DNA of 38,226 nucleotides from Anaerolineales bacterium (GTDB lineage Bacteria; Chloroflexota; Anaerolineae; Anaerolineales; Villigracilaceae): the NCBI GenBank assembly GCA_029933275.1, contig JAOZOM010000002.1, positions 1-38,226 on the forward strand. Reading direction: 5' to 3'. The notes beneath the pieces are model-generated. The model had not been told where the DNA came from. It ran no database searches and saw only the letters and a list, made by a program, of their open reading frames with translations. Below, one piece after another: positions 31,600 to 37,524 of the stretch (the stretch's first letter is position 1; each line of letters opens with the position of its first letter). The translations under genes and the position numbers were made by a program.

Positions 31600-33972
31600 A
31601 TGCGAAAATGGAACCTAGGCTCTCCCGACCCAATTTCTTTAACATTGGCGGCAGATGCCCGCTTCACCTCTCTCGACTATAAGAACGACCATATTTGGGA
31701 ATTAGAATTTGGAGGCAGTGAACCTGCTGCTATCGCCATTAGGACGACTTACGGACTGCGGGCGCGAGCAATGCGGATTTTTCCGCGCTTTAGCGAAGGC
31801 GGCGACCCGATCAGCGATCCCGCTGCCTTCGTGACCCCGCCGCGGGTTACCGCTTTTTATGCCAATTTTCTGGAAATTAGCTTTTCTCCGTTAAAAGACC
31901 TCGACATCATCGCCGAATACTGGATTCCGGATTCTCATACGCTCAGTTGTCGCCTAACCCTGCTCAATCGTTCTTCTGAAGAACGCGAAATCGGGATTGA
32001 ATTAGTCGCGGTTTTATCTCCGCTCGAAGGCAAAATTTTTCAACCCGAACAGATGCAAGCGGTCAATGTCCTTGCTGGCAAAACGGGAGATCTCGTCCCT
32101 GTCATCTTCCTGACGGGCGGACCCGCACACGGCTCGTCTCCCCATCCCTCTCTCAACCTAAAATTGGCACTTGGCTCTCGCGGCAAGCGTAGCGTTACTT
32201 GGGCGCAAGCCGCATTAGCAGAAAAAGAAGATTCCTTTGAGTTAGCGCGCAAAACCCTCACCCGCCAATGGGACGCTGAGCGCGCTCGCATTGAACTGAC
32301 CAATGCCAGCCAAAGCATCGACATTGAAACCGGCGATCCCGCGTGGGACGCGGCTTTTGCCCTCAGCCAACAAGCCGCCTTTCGCCTCTTCTTCAACGCG
32401 AGCGATGATTTGCCGCATCCCAGCTTTGTTTCGGCGCGTTTGCCCGATCATGGTCATTCCCTCACCGAAGATGGGAGCGATTACACCTCAAGCTGGCGCG
32501 GACAAACGCCCCTCGAAAGCTATTATCTCGCCAGTCTGCTCCCCGGCATCCCCGAGATGGGGCAGGGATTGGTAAAAAACTTTCTCGCCGTCCAAGATGA
32601 AAAGGGCGTAATTGACCATAAACCCGGTCTCGCAGGACAACGCAGCAAAATTCTCGCCGCGCCTTTGCTCGCCTCCCTCACGTGGAAGCTCTATCAAGAA
32701 AGTCAAAACCAAAATTTCCTTGCCGAAAGCTACCCTGCCTTGCAAAAATTTTTCTGGGCATGGTTCAACTCCGAACACGACCGTAACCACGATAACCTCC
32801 CCGAATGGGATCACCCCCTCCAAACTGGTTTTGAAGACCATCCCCTTTTTAGCCGATGGCATCCGTGGTCACGCGGCGTGGATATTTCCACTGTTCATAG
32901 CCCCTCGCTTTTCGCCGCACTCTATCGCGAGGCGCAATCCCTCGCCAAAATCAGCGAAATAGTCGGCAAAAAAAACGACATCGCCGTTCTTAAAGTGCAA
33001 AGTGACCTCCTGCTTAAGGGGCTACAAGCCTGCTGGGAACCGCGTTCCTCCTCTTTCAAACATCTTGACCGAGATAGCAACCTCGCCCAACGCGGCAAAA
33101 TTCTCATCCGCCAAACAGGGGGCGGCGAAATTAAGCTTAAAGAGAGTTTCGAGAAACCAATTCGCTTATTAATTGAGATCCGCGCCAAAGACCACGCCCC
33201 GCGCCGTCCGGGTGCCGAAATTAGCGAATTTGTCACCAAAGCCGGTGATGATGAGTTCCTCGCTCCGCTCGACTTCAAACCCACCCACGCGGGGTCTGTC
33301 GCTACGAGCAAAAAGGTCTATACGAAAATCGGCAAAATCACGATAGATGATGTGGGCGAAGAAGATAAAATTATTATTCGGACGGTAAACTTAAGCGCGG
33401 ATGACCAAACTCAGCTTCTGCCCCTTTGGGCAGGGATGTTGGATGAACAGCAAGCGCGGACGCTCGTGAGCCGAACATTATCCAATGCGGATAGATTTGA
33501 TCGTCCCTTTGGCTTGCCAGCCTGCCCCAGCCCCCCAACGAAAGCAGCGGAGGCGCTCTGTCTTAGCGTTCACCTCCCCTGGAATCAATTTGTCATCGAG
33601 GGGATGCTCGCCTACGGCTACCAAAGCGAGGCAACGCGGCTCTTTGCCCATCTAATGAATGGGATTATCCAAAATCTTCAAGAGAATAATGCTTTTTACG
33701 AACGATATAATGCCGAAGTTGGCACTGGTGTCGGCGAGCGAAACGCGCTGGTTGGCTTGGCTCCGGTCGGTCTTTTTTTGCAGATTCTCGGCGTGCGCAT
33801 TCTCTCCTCAACGCGCGTCCGGCTGGAGGGCGTAAACCCCTTCCCCTGGGTGGTGAAACTGCGTTATCGTGGTTTGGAGGTTGAACGGGGAATGTCGACG
33901 ACCAAGATTACCTTTCCAAATGGCAAGCAAGCTGAGGTCACGGACGAGGCTCCGTGCATTGTGTCCATTTAA
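31600..33972 (+). CDS. MGH1-like / GH63-like (alpha/alpha)6 glycoside hydrolase
   Basis: YTSSWRGQTPLESYYLASLLPGIPEMGQGLVKNFLAVQDEKGVIDHKPG, LPEWDHPLQTGFEDHPLF, LCLSVHLPWNQFVIEGMLAYGYQSEATRLFAHLM. Confidence 0.7.
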   Translation: MRKWNLGSPDPISLTLAADARFTSLDYKNDHIWELEFGGSEPAAIAIRTTYGLRARAMRIFPRFSEGGDPISDPAAFVTPPRVTAFYANFLEISFSPLKDLDIIAEYWIPDSHTLSCRLTLLNRSSEEREIGIELVAVLSPLEGKIFQPEQMQAVNVLAGKTGDLVPVIFLTGGPAHGSSPHPSLNLKLALGSRGKRSVTWAQAALAEKEDSFELARKTLTRQWDAERARIELTNASQSIDIETGDPAWDAAFALSQQAAFRLFFNASDDLPHPSFVSARLPDHGHSLTEDGSDYTSSWRGQTPLESYYLASLLPGIPEMGQGLVKNFLAVQDEKGVIDHKPGLAGQRSKILAAPLLASLTWKLYQESQNQNFLAESYPALQKFFWAWFNSEHDRNHDNLPEWDHPLQTGFEDHPLFSRWHPWSRGVDISTVHSPSLFAALYREAQSLAKISEIVGKKNDIAVLKVQSDLLLKGLQACWEPRSSSFKHLDRDSNLAQRGKILIRQTGGGEIKLKESFEKPIRLLIEIRAKDHAPRRPGAEISEFVTKAGDDEFLAPLDFKPTHAGSVATSKKVYTKIGKITIDDVGEEDKIIIRTVNLSADDQTQLLPLWAGMLDEQQARTLVSRTLSNADRFDRPFGLPACPSPPTKAAEALCLSVHLPWNQFVIEGMLAYGYQSEATRLFAHLMNGIIQNLQENNAFYERYNAEVGTGVGERNALVGLAPVGLFLQILGVRILSSTRVRLEGVNPFPWVVKLRYRGLEVERGMSTTKITFPNGKQAEVTDEAPCIVSI

Positions 33973-34017: not shown

Positions 34018-35916
34018 ATGGAAGAACTCGCACATACGATTATTTCAGCAGAACGGGTCGTTTTGCTTTTGCTACTCATCGCCCTATTGGTTTCCATTGT
34101 GGCGAAGCGTTTCCGTTTGCCCTATACGGTTGGGTTGGTCATAATTGGTTTGATTTTAACTTTTTTCTCTGATAAGACCTTAGAAATCTCCCCCGAGTTG
34201 ATTATGGGGTTATTGGTTCCGCCCTTGATTTTCGAGGCTTCTTTTCATATTCGCATTGATGATCTGCGGCGTGATTTTGGGTTGATTATGCTTCTCGCTA
34301 TTCCCGGCGTGATTATGACAACGCTGCTGGTAGGTGGCGCAATCCAGTGGGGAACGGGGATGGCAATTTCTACAGCGTTGGTTTTCGGCGCGCTGATAGC
34401 GGCAACTGATCCTGTCGCTGTGGTGGCACTGTTTAAACAATTGGGGGTTCCAAAACGCTTGCAGATTTTGCTCGAAGGAGAAAGCCTTTTCAACGATGGC
34501 ACCGCGATTGTGATGTTTGGGCTAATGTTGGATATTGCGTTAAAAGGAAGCTTTGTTCTAAATGAAAGTCTGATTGACTTTGTACGCGTGGCGGGCGGAG
34601 GCGTTTTTGTTGGTGTAATTTTAGGATTACTCACATCTCAAGCTATTAGGCGAATTAACGATCCTCTTGTTGAGACAACTATTACAACTATTCTGGCTTT
34701 TGGCGCATATATTTTAGCGGAAGATTTGCATGTTAGCGGTGTGCTGGCGGTTGTGATGGCGGGCATTGTTAGTGGCAATATCGGACCGCGCGGTATGTCG
34801 CCTACGACGCGAATTGTTGTGAATAATTTTTGGGAATACGGTGCTTTTCTAGCGAATTCTTTAATCTTCTTGATTATCGGATTAACAACCGATTTACAAG
34901 TTTTACTGGATAATTGGCAGGCAATTGGGGTCGCCATTTTGGCAATTTTAGGGGTACGTGCAATAAGTATTTATGGTTTTTCCCTGTTTGGAAAGGATAT
35001 TCCGCTTAAGTGGAAGCATGTCCTTTATTGGGGCGGATTGCGCGGTGCAATCGTGCTTGCGTTGGCATTGAGTATTCCAACGAATTTTCCTGAGCGAGAA
35101 CGTCTTTTGGCAATGGCTTTCGGCGTAGTTTTATTTACATTGTTAGTACAAGGTTTTTCGATGGATGCGCTGGTCAAAAAGTTGGAATTAGTCAAACGGA
35201 CTGAAAGCCAAATTGAATACGAACGCCGCCATGCTCGCTATATTTCTAATCGCTCTGCTTTTGAACACCTTGAAAATATGAGCAAGCAAGGGCTACTCTC
35301 TGCACATATTTGGAGCCAGATGAAAGCTATTTTTCAAAAACGCGAGCTTTTCTTAATTGGTGCTTTGCAAGAAGTGCTTTCAAAAAACCCTTCTGTTGAA
35401 ATCGAGGAGTTAGATACTGCCCGTCAGGAGGCTTTGCGCGTTCAACGCTCTGCTATTGGACGATTATTTCGAGATGGGATGATTTCAGAGGATATTCACG
35501 AAGAACTGATTAGCGAGGTAGACCAAGCTCTCACAGAAGAACATGTGAATTGGTCGCAGCTTTTGCAAATGGGATCGGGGGAGAAATCTAAGATTACAAA
35601 AATGATGGTGGTTATGATTCAAGAAGATGATTTTGAAAGTGCGCTAAAAGGTTTAAGCAGTGCCGGTTTTGGTGTAGATCGTTTGCCTAGCACAGGCGGT
35701 TTTTTGAGCCAGCATAACGTCACTTTGCTAATCGGTATCCCCGAAAACCGAGAAGCGGATATTGTGCCGGTTTTAGAGAAAAACTGTAAGAAGCGCATCA
35801 AATATATCCGCACGCCTTTAGAAGGAGCGTTTCTGCCCTTTTCCCGCCCTGTCCCCGTAGAGGTTGGCGGTGCGACTATTTTTACCTTTGAGATAGAGGC
35901 TTACCATGAATTCTAA
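34018..35916 (+). CDS. CPA1-type Na+/H+ antiporter with C-terminal DarA-like (PII-like cyclic-di-AMP receptor) domain
   Basis: Antiporter core: FGALIAATDPVAVVALFKQLGVPKRLQILLEGESLFNDGTAIV. C-terminal ~105 aa (about 35599-35913) KMMVVMIQEDDFESALKGLSSAGFGVDRLPSTGGFLSQHNVTLLIGI...RPVPVEVGGATIFTFEIEAYHEF matches the DarA/PstA pattern. Confidence 0.88.
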   Translation: MEELAHTIISAERVVLLLLLIALLVSIVAKRFRLPYTVGLVIIGLILTFFSDKTLEISPELIMGLLVPPLIFEASFHIRIDDLRRDFGLIMLLAIPGVIMTTLLVGGAIQWGTGMAISTALVFGALIAATDPVAVVALFKQLGVPKRLQILLEGESLFNDGTAIVMFGLMLDIALKGSFVLNESLIDFVRVAGGGVFVGVILGLLTSQAIRRINDPLVETTITTILAFGAYILAEDLHVSGVLAVVMAGIVSGNIGPRGMSPTTRIVVNNFWEYGAFLANSLIFLIIGLTTDLQVLLDNWQAIGVAILAILGVRAISIYGFSLFGKDIPLKWKHVLYWGGLRGAIVLALALSIPTNFPERERLLAMAFGVVLFTLLVQGFSMDALVKKLELVKRTESQIEYERRHARYISNRSAFEHLENMSKQGLLSAHIWSQMKAIFQKRELFLIGALQEVLSKNPSVEIEELDTARQEALRVQRSAIGRLFRDGMISEDIHEELISEVDQALTEEHVNWSQLLQMGSGEKSKITKMMVVMIQEDDFESALKGLSSAGFGVDRLPSTGGFLSQHNVTLLIGIPENREADIVPVLEKNCKKRIKYIRTPLEGAFLPFSRPVPVEVGGATIFTFEIEAYHEF

Positions 35917-36187
35917 GAATATGAAAATGCTCATTGCGATTGTTCGTGATGCTGATTTGGATAAAATTCTGAACGCGTTACTCGATGAGAATTTCCGTGT
36001 GACGCGCATCGCCTCCAGTGGCGGATTCTTCCGTCGCGGCAACGCAACATTGATGATGGGAGTAGAAGAGGAGAGAGTGGATGAGGCTCTCAATATCATT
36101 CATGATCATTGTACGCCCTCTCTTGACCTCGCGGTTAAGCACGCAACCGTTTTTGTGCTGGATGTAGACCGTTTCGAGCAGATTTAA
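35906..36187 (+). CDS. Stand-alone DarA-like cyclic-di-AMP receptor
   Basis: MKMLIAIVRDADLDKILNALLDENFRVTRIASSGGFFRRGNATLMMGVEEERVDEALNIIHDHC; overlaps the antiporter stop by 11 bp. Confidence 0.85.
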   Translation: MNSKNMKMLIAIVRDADLDKILNALLDENFRVTRIASSGGFFRRGNATLMMGVEEERVDEALNIIHDHCTPSLDLAVKHATVFVLDVDRFEQI

Positions 36188-36253: not shown

Positions 36254-37072
36254 CTAATCCTGTTCCTGACTCCGCCATGCTTGCCATTTGAGCAGATAAT
36301 TTTCTAGCCACGCGACAATCCCATATAGCACAAGAGCCAAGACGATCAAAGCGAAAATAGCGACGAAGACCAGCGCGGTATCGTATTGCCCGCGCCCGAC
36401 GTTGATTAAAAACCCTAGCCCGCGATCTGAACCGACAAATTCGCCGACCACCGCGCCGATGACCGAGAGTGCGGCTCCAATCCGCAAGCCGCCCAAGAAG
36501 ATGGGTAATGCAGCGGGGATTTCGAGGTAGCGCAATGTTTGCCAACGAGTGGCGCGTAGGGAGCGCATCAGATCGTGCAAAGCGGAGGGGACTTCGCGCA
36601 CGCCGACAACGGTATTGACTAAAACGGGGAAAAAGACAATTAACGCGCAAATGAGAACTTTTGAGAAGATGCCCGGTCCGAACCAGATGACCAGTAGAGG
36701 TGCGATGGCGACAATTGGCACGGCTTGACTAGCAACAAGATAGGGAGCCAAGAGCCGCTCAAAAAGCCGAGATTTGGCAAGCAAGTATCCTAACACAGTC
36801 GCCGCGGCGGTTCCTATTAAAAGCCCCAGCAGTACCTCGAGCAGCGTTACGCTAGTGTGGCGAAGCAGGCTTCCATCCGTGAGAGAGCGAGCGAAGCGAA
36901 TCCCTACATCTGAAGGGGTGGGGAGGATAAAGGCGGGCAAATCAGTTAGGGAGACGGCCAATTGCCATCCCGCTAACGCAAGAAAAAGGGAGAGAAGCGC
37001 AATCCAAAAAGACCCTAAGGGAGGGTTGCTACGAGTTGTTTTTTTAAACTTTCTGGTGAGATTGATATTCAT
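36254..37072 (-). CDS. ribX: ABC transporter permease, probable riboflavin transporter permease RibX
   Basis: BPD-type permease (VASQAVPIVAIAPLLVIWFGPGIFSKVLICALIVFFPVLVNTVVGVREVP); downstream of an FMN riboswitch. Start MNINLTRKF at 37072; the ORF extends to 37123. Confidence 0.75.
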   Translation of the reverse strand: MNINLTRKFKKTTRSNPPLGSFWIALLSLFLALAGWQLAVSLTDLPAFILPTPSDVGIRFARSLTDGSLLRHTSVTLLEVLLGLLIGTAAATVLGYLLAKSRLFERLLAPYLVASQAVPIVAIAPLLVIWFGPGIFSKVLICALIVFFPVLVNTVVGVREVPSALHDLMRSLRATRWQTLRYLEIPAALPIFLGGLRIGAALSVIGAVVGEFVGSDRGLGFLINVGRGQYDTALVFVAIFALIVLALVLYGIVAWLENYLLKWQAWRSQEQD

Positions 37073-37084
37073 GGTAATAAAAAA

Positions 37085-37118
37085 TGCTCCACAAGAATTT
37101 CCTTCGAGGCGTGGAGCA
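37085..37118 (-). terminator. Second terminator-like hairpin next to the ribX start
   Basis: Minus strand TGCTCCAC-(18 nt)-GTGGAGCA followed by TTTTTT. Confidence 0.55.
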
Positions 37119-37147
37119 GGCATAGCGGCAAGGCGATGGCTGCGCTA

Positions 37148-37179: not shown

Positions 37180-37220
37180 GCGTAGGGACAGCCAGCACTG
37201 GCGCGCCAGAACTGCGTAAA

Positions 37221-37360
37221 AAACCTTCTTCTATCCGGACTATAACCGTCGGCTTCGGAGTTTCACCGAATCATGTACTTCGCGTTTGCTCAGCACTCGT
37301 GGGCTGTATACCGCAAGGGCATAACACCACCGATCGGGACTTTCACCCTGCCCCGAAGGT
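37221..37360 (-). ncRNA. FMN riboswitch (RFN element)
   Basis: Minus strand ACCTTCGGGGCAGGGTGAAAGTCCCGATCGGTGGTGTTATGCCC...ATTCGGTGAAACTCCGAAGCCGACGGTTATAGTCCGGATAGAAGAAGGTT contains the conserved RFN blocks and P1 closure. Confidence 0.95.
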
Positions 37361-37524
37361 AAATTGAATTGTAAATAGATTATAGCAGGCTATTAGGGCG
37401 CGTCAATATGTGTTTTGTTATATTATTAGTTAGGTGGTCGGATAGTTAATTTGCTTCCTTTTGTATTGCCTCAAGTTAAACGGAAGCAAGCTTAAAACGC
37501 GTACGTAGCGGGTTTTCATCCTAT

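Follow-up and report, generated by a model that had tools for sequence, protein, structure and literature searches.

What does a receptor of the DarA/PstA type, known for binding cyclic di-AMP (c-di-AMP), control when it forms the C terminus of a cation/proton antiporter? A 2021 paper presents DarA as a target protein whose function is unknown (PMC7900238), and a 2015 paper on PstA calls for the identification of PstA binding partners (PMC4475381). The locus that raises the question lies in a 38,226-nucleotide stretch of DNA from an Anaerolineales bacterium (the window, contig JAOZOM010000002.1), in which two genes overlap: LONG, named for the fused-type, B-loop-bearing DarA domain, and SHORT, the B-loop-less copy. 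The first-pass annotation had described an antiporter with a DarA-like C-terminal domain and a stand-alone paralog overlapping its gene by 11 bp. Both open reading frames, LONG of 632 amino acids (aa) and SHORT of 93 aa, were confirmed at exactly the coordinates below.

31600-33972, plus strand: glycoside hydrolase (MGH1-like/trehalase-like), 45 bp upstream of LONG (PF22422, 4e-19; PF01204, 5e-6)
34018-35916, plus strand: LONG, predicted CPA1 Na+/H+ antiporter with a C-terminal DarA/PstA-type domain (PF00999, PF06153, TIGR00831, and matches of the AF2 model)
34018-35181, plus strand: transmembrane antiporter part of LONG, containing the N159-D160 pair of CPA1 (SLFNDGTA), which does not vary among 20 fused orthologs
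35203-35574, plus strand: cytosolic helical linker of LONG, residues ~396 to 519 (AF2 secondary structure; conserved among fused orthologs)
35599-35913, plus strand: DarA domain of LONG, half-site B and B-loop region kept, half-site A degenerate (PF06153, PDB sequence matches, pocket residue table)
35906-36187, plus strand: SHORT, stand-alone B-loop-less DarA paralog, half-site A kept (PF06153, 5.4e-27; AF2 pLDDT 86.6; Foldseek matches to PstA/DarA)
35906-35916, plus strand: overlap of the LONG and SHORT reading frames, 11 bp, ATGAATTCTAA (from the sequence)

The overlap suggests translational coupling, and the gaps between LONG and SHORT in relatives are typically short or negative. No c-di-AMP (ydaO) riboswitch was found near the operon, and promoter and terminator scans gave no excess over shuffles. 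The sole Rfam match in the window was an FMN riboswitch elsewhere (RF00050, E value of 1.8e-23, at 37219-37364 on the minus strand), upstream of an ABC transporter permease gene (36254-37123, minus strand); this position suggests that the permease is part of a flavin-precursor or related transporter.

Residues 20 to 388 of LONG matched PF00999 in Pfam (E value of 5.6e-76), and the NCBIfam model TIGR00831 (a_cpa1) matched above its cutoff. Together with the ND pair, the functional role of which is established for CPA1/NhaP proteins, these matches give LONG the sequence features taken to define CPA1 membership, which is thus predicted from its sequence to be a CPA1 antiporter exchanging Na+ or K+ for H+. 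In the same frame, residues 528 to 631 matched the c-di-AMP receptor family PF06153 (CdAMP_rec) with an E value of 7.9e-20 and 71.5 bits, against a cutoff of 27. No TrkA_C/RCK_C domain was found in LONG with Pfam, and the TrkA_C matches of the genome sit on other contigs. The AF2 models of LONG and SHORT are monomers; that of fused LONG, of moderate confidence (pLDDT, 71; pTM, 0.57), shows an all-helical membrane part, the helical linker, and then a domain with the PII-like order of strands and helices at moderate pLDDT. In Foldseek searches, its best PDB matches were SLC9C1 and SOS1, followed by NHE1 and the archaeal NhaP proteins PaNhaP and MjNhaP1. In SLC9C1, a cAMP-responsive exchanger, and in SOS1, the CPA1 membrane part likewise precedes an extensive cytosolic regulatory region, made up of helical and cyclic-nucleotide-binding-type domains, but they are eukaryotic, and their receptor domain is of the CNBD type and not PII-like.

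The stand-alone gene also scored above the PF06153 cutoff, so that the Pfam search proposed for both regions (residues 528 to 632 of LONG and positions 35906 to 36187) came out positive throughout. Its best stretch covers only profile positions 1 to 65, which indicates that SHORT lacks the B-loop; in LONG, the B-loop is present but shorter than in characterized DarA/PstA proteins. Searches of PDB sequences returned PstA of Listeria (4rww) and S. aureus (4d3g/4wk1) and DarA of B. subtilis (4rle) both for the LONG domain (4e-16 to 2.5e-15) and for SHORT (1e-19 to 2e-16), and Foldseek with the SHORT model listed PstA/DarA first (3m05, 4d3h, 4rle, 4rww, and 4wk1) and classical PII proteins thereafter. 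With the DarA model NF058593, LONG scored 76.5 and SHORT 94.6 bits, both below the equivalog cutoff of 140 bits; the two are therefore members of the PF06153 family and not DarA equivalogs. Furthermore, all 98 SHORTs in a tree of 205 domains formed one clade (SH-aLRT, 98). The earlier description of SHORT as a second DarA copy thus holds at the level of the family, but SHORT belongs to a distinct B-loop-less subfamily and is no standard DarA.

The pair is not peculiar to this genome. Among 40 relatives, which are not independent samples, PF06153 was present in 36, in nearly every case with a short copy a few bases behind a full-length one, and in about half of the relatives, including all nine genomes of the genus, the full-length copy lay within a frame of 589 to 702 aa. 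A scan of genomes with the SHORT alignment yielded at least 80 loci, besides 135 weaker matches; among the matches listed, all loci kept were titled Chloroflexota or a subgroup thereof. LONG was directly upstream of SHORT in 110 of 118 cases (counting the window plus every locus from L034 onward), or in 110 of the 115 that were informative. Of the eight SHORTs with no adjacent LONG, three are at contig ends and five are real (L075, L076, L090, L113, and L121); the sequence upstream of SHORT extends for only 731 bp at L076 and 287 bp at L121. The adjacency of SHORT to LONG, fused or not, is thus conserved across Anaerolineales-type Chloroflexota.

The search for antiporter-DarA fusions that had been suggested for Chloroflexota was productive: CPA1 transmembrane sequence was in frame with the LONG DarA domain in 26 of 98 distinct pairs, which, together with the long open frame in every genome of the genus, shows that the fusion is no assembly artifact. 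Fused and unfused LONGs were separated by four changes on the 205-domain tree, at least three of them forced by the starred branches, so that fusion or fission occurred several times. LONG and SHORT were not found joined in a single natural chain. In other families of Chloroflexota, frames of 509 to 592 aa enclosing canonical DarA were considered as further fusions and were read instead as GC-rich open-frame artifacts, having a GC content of 0.70 to 0.73, start codons near the domain, and no transporter-like sequence before it.

The source draft genome (2.38 Mb, 83% complete) contains no PF06153 copies other than these two. A diadenylate cyclase, the absence of which was to count against a c-di-AMP receptor, is present as a single CdaA-like gene of 303 aa followed, by inspection, by a YbbR/CdaR-like gene, and a diadenylate cyclase was found in 39 of the 40 relatives.

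How the two copies might share a ligand is suggested by the pocket residues. In PstA, c-di-AMP is bound between subunits by two half-sites on neighboring monomers: monomer A contributes R26 (in S. aureus), T28, G47, and Q/H108, and monomer B contributes F36/L37 of the T-loop, N41, and F99, plus G94 of the B-loop in Listeria (PMC4475381, PMC4316997). The Kd was not measurable for the T28A and GGFL-AAAA mutants, and binding by N41A was ~26-fold weaker (PMC4316997). Half A was accordingly scored as T28 with Q, H, R, K, or N at position 108, and half B as GGF at positions 34 to 36, N41, and F99. By this rule, the canonical DarA proteins of Chloroflexota were complete as homomers in 27 of 27 cases. 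The counts for the pairs describe a pattern and are no blind test, because the rule was set after the window residues and a first table (31 LONGs and 32 SHORTs, included in the 98 pairs) were known and the other pairs, although new, are related: half A was complete in 97 of 98 SHORTs, 25 of 98 LONGs, and none of the 26 CPA1-fused LONGs, and half B was complete in 77 LONGs, including 25 of the 26 fused ones, and in 32 SHORTs. Read in the same way, a pocket with half A from SHORT and half B from LONG was complete in 77 of 98 pairs (25 of 26 fused) and incomplete in 21, one of them fused, while the reciprocal interface was complete in 13 pairs (0 of 26 fused), the LONG homomer in 12 (0 of 26), and the SHORT homomer in 32 (15 of 26).

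The window follows the same division. LONG keeps the half B residues G34, G35, F36, L37, N41, G94, G95, A96, T97, and F99, and its half A is degenerate (G26, D in place of T28, and E108). SHORT has R26, T28, GGFF, N41, G47, F99, and Q108, with KH in place of GG94-95. Across the pairs, T28 is retained in half of the LONG sequences, so that half A often counts as lost through residue 108, which is E instead of H, Q, or R. On the trees, T28 was never lost in SHORT and changed eight times in LONG, and N41 changed seven times in SHORT and three times in LONG. With the contacts of half A lost (T28 to D and residue 108 to E), the fused LONG domain by itself is unlikely to act as a c-di-AMP-binding homotrimer. 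The first-pass annotation had held that loss of contact residues in both copies would speak against c-di-AMP binding; fused LONG has indeed lost half A, but SHORT keeps T28 and a donor at position 108. The idea that the reciprocal site is closed by LONG E108 pairing with R95 of SHORT was judged only suggestive, R95 being common with either E or Q at position 108.

The main rival to a shared pocket, a rival that we regard as unlikely, is that a SHORT homotrimer binds c-di-AMP by itself and docks on, or releases, fused LONG in the manner of GlnK on AmtB, with LONG, itself unable to bind ligand, acting as the receptor of that sensor. The pocket residues of the window SHORT allow this, as do the 15 fused-pair SHORTs with both half-sites satisfied, provided that GG94-95 is ignored, and the orphan SHORT genes show that SHORT is not always in need of an adjacent LONG. 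Moreover, S. aureus PstA with the B-loop deleted still bound c-di-AMP in lysate (PMC4316997). However, N41 is missing in 59 of 98 SHORTs and GG94-95 in all 98, and it is precisely the complementary half of the pocket that LONG conserves, something that a mere docking partner would not require.

A different ligand for the pair, either ATP/ADP/AMP or another dinucleotide, appears quite improbable. It would account for the loss of the B-loop and for the basic residues R/K9, R26, R38, and R/H95 in SHORT, since basic residues occupy positions 94 and 95 in place of the canonical GG in nearly all SHORTs and R38 is present almost without exception, and SHORT has a weak match to the P-II family PF00543 (6.7e-4, below the cutoff); the PstA residues that read c-di-AMP (T28, G47, F36, and the donor at 108) are nevertheless near invariant in SHORT, and nearly all relatives have the cyclase. 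It is very improbable that the antiporter carries its DarA domain just for structure or assembly, as a decaying receptor with no ligand role: half A is lost in most LONGs and in all fused ones, and fission or fusion recurred on the tree, but GGFL, N41, GGA, and F99 are still conserved in fused LONG, and SHORT is retained beside it.

The preferred reading is that the two genes form one c-di-AMP-controlled cation/proton antiporter with a heterotrimeric switch, in which LONG would be the output and SHORT would complete the predicted pocket; we see it as evenly poised between right and wrong. A stricter form, with slightly less than an even chance of being correct, holds that the heterotrimer is obligate, that each paralog has half a pocket, that free SHORT completes the trimer and creates its only working site, and that the unfused version operates beside other transporters. 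LONG, fused to the CPA1 transporter, would be the output subunit with the B-loop and half-site B, and SHORT would supply half-site A; because trimers of the DarA family bind c-di-AMP between neighboring subunits, such a heterotrimer would offer a single functional pocket, located where SHORT(A) meets LONG(B). CPA1 proteins are dimeric transporters, and a plausible stoichiometry of two LONG domains, from an antiporter dimer, and one SHORT would make a trimeric sensor compatible with a transporter of this kind. The ligand would reposition the LONG domain and the helical linker, altering Na+(K+)/H+ exchange in one direction or the other and thereby coupling it to the c-di-AMP osmotic/K+ signal. 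The mixed trimers that had been proposed at the outset are strengthened by the half-site split, and the alternative offered with them, competition by SHORT, fits worse than completion.

A plausible path to this arrangement is gene duplication, followed by loss of the B-loop in one copy; the other would then have lost half A, locking both together. Elsewhere in the phylum, two loci in another family of the same class (L164/L165, in genomes G276 and G208) have a complete canonical-type DarA with a short copy 22 bp on, and solitary B-loop-less short copies occur at L178 to L181, L184, and L185.

Upstream contexts were tallied automatically, by nearest matching gene, for the 78 pairs of the set from L063 on. 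LONG was fused to CPA1 in 21 pairs, 15 of these behind a glycoside hydrolase, and in another 29 a glycoside hydrolase was the only such gene ahead of LONG. CPA2 and/or a further PII-like gene preceded LONG in nine pairs, an ArsB/CitMHS-type transporter in three, and a separate frame matching CPA1 in three; 12 pairs had other contexts, and one lay at a contig edge. The cases with a separate CPA1 frame give no independent support: at L069 and L081, a second LONG-SHORT pair stands in tandem behind a fused CPA1, and the L077 copy is frame-split. The glycoside hydrolase, a conserved upstream neighbor with or without the antiporter, resembles mannosylglycerate hydrolase/trehalase, and a predicted role in osmolyte metabolism would fit. 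At L134:4193-4549, L094:4263-4640, L079:6504-6866, and similar loci, CPA2 antiporters are separated from LONG-SHORT by a third PII-like gene (~120 aa); one copy matched PF00543 weakly (4e-4), and another had no Pfam or NCBIfam match.

GlnK-AmtB and SbtB-SbtA are systems in which a PII-superfamily sensor controls a membrane transporter, but their sensors are separate homotrimers on trimeric transporters, whereas in LONG a covalent link joins the sensor to a CPA1 transporter. SbtB is also treated in PMC13249358. The c-di-AMP-regulated K+/H+ antiporter CpaA likewise joins a cation/proton antiporter to a c-di-AMP-receptor-type domain, but through RCK_C (PMC10243994) rather than a PII-like DarA-family domain with a separate second subunit. 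B. subtilis DarA and the PstA proteins of S. aureus and L. monocytogenes share with this pair the PF06153 profile, the fold, the T-loop GGFL, and, once LONG and SHORT are counted together, the pocket residues; they differ, however, in being homotrimers that stand alone, with a long B-loop and complete pockets, while in the present pair an antiporter carries one copy, no B-loop is present in the other, and the half-sites are divided between them. No prior report of a DarA-antiporter fusion or of a split or heteromeric DarA receptor was found in the part of the open literature that was searched. The covalent CPA1 fusion, present in many genomes, names a candidate direct target for DarA/PstA proteins, cation/proton exchange, and makes the question of their output testable in one purified protein pair, and the half-site split predicts a heteromeric PII-like receptor of asymmetric, single-site design.
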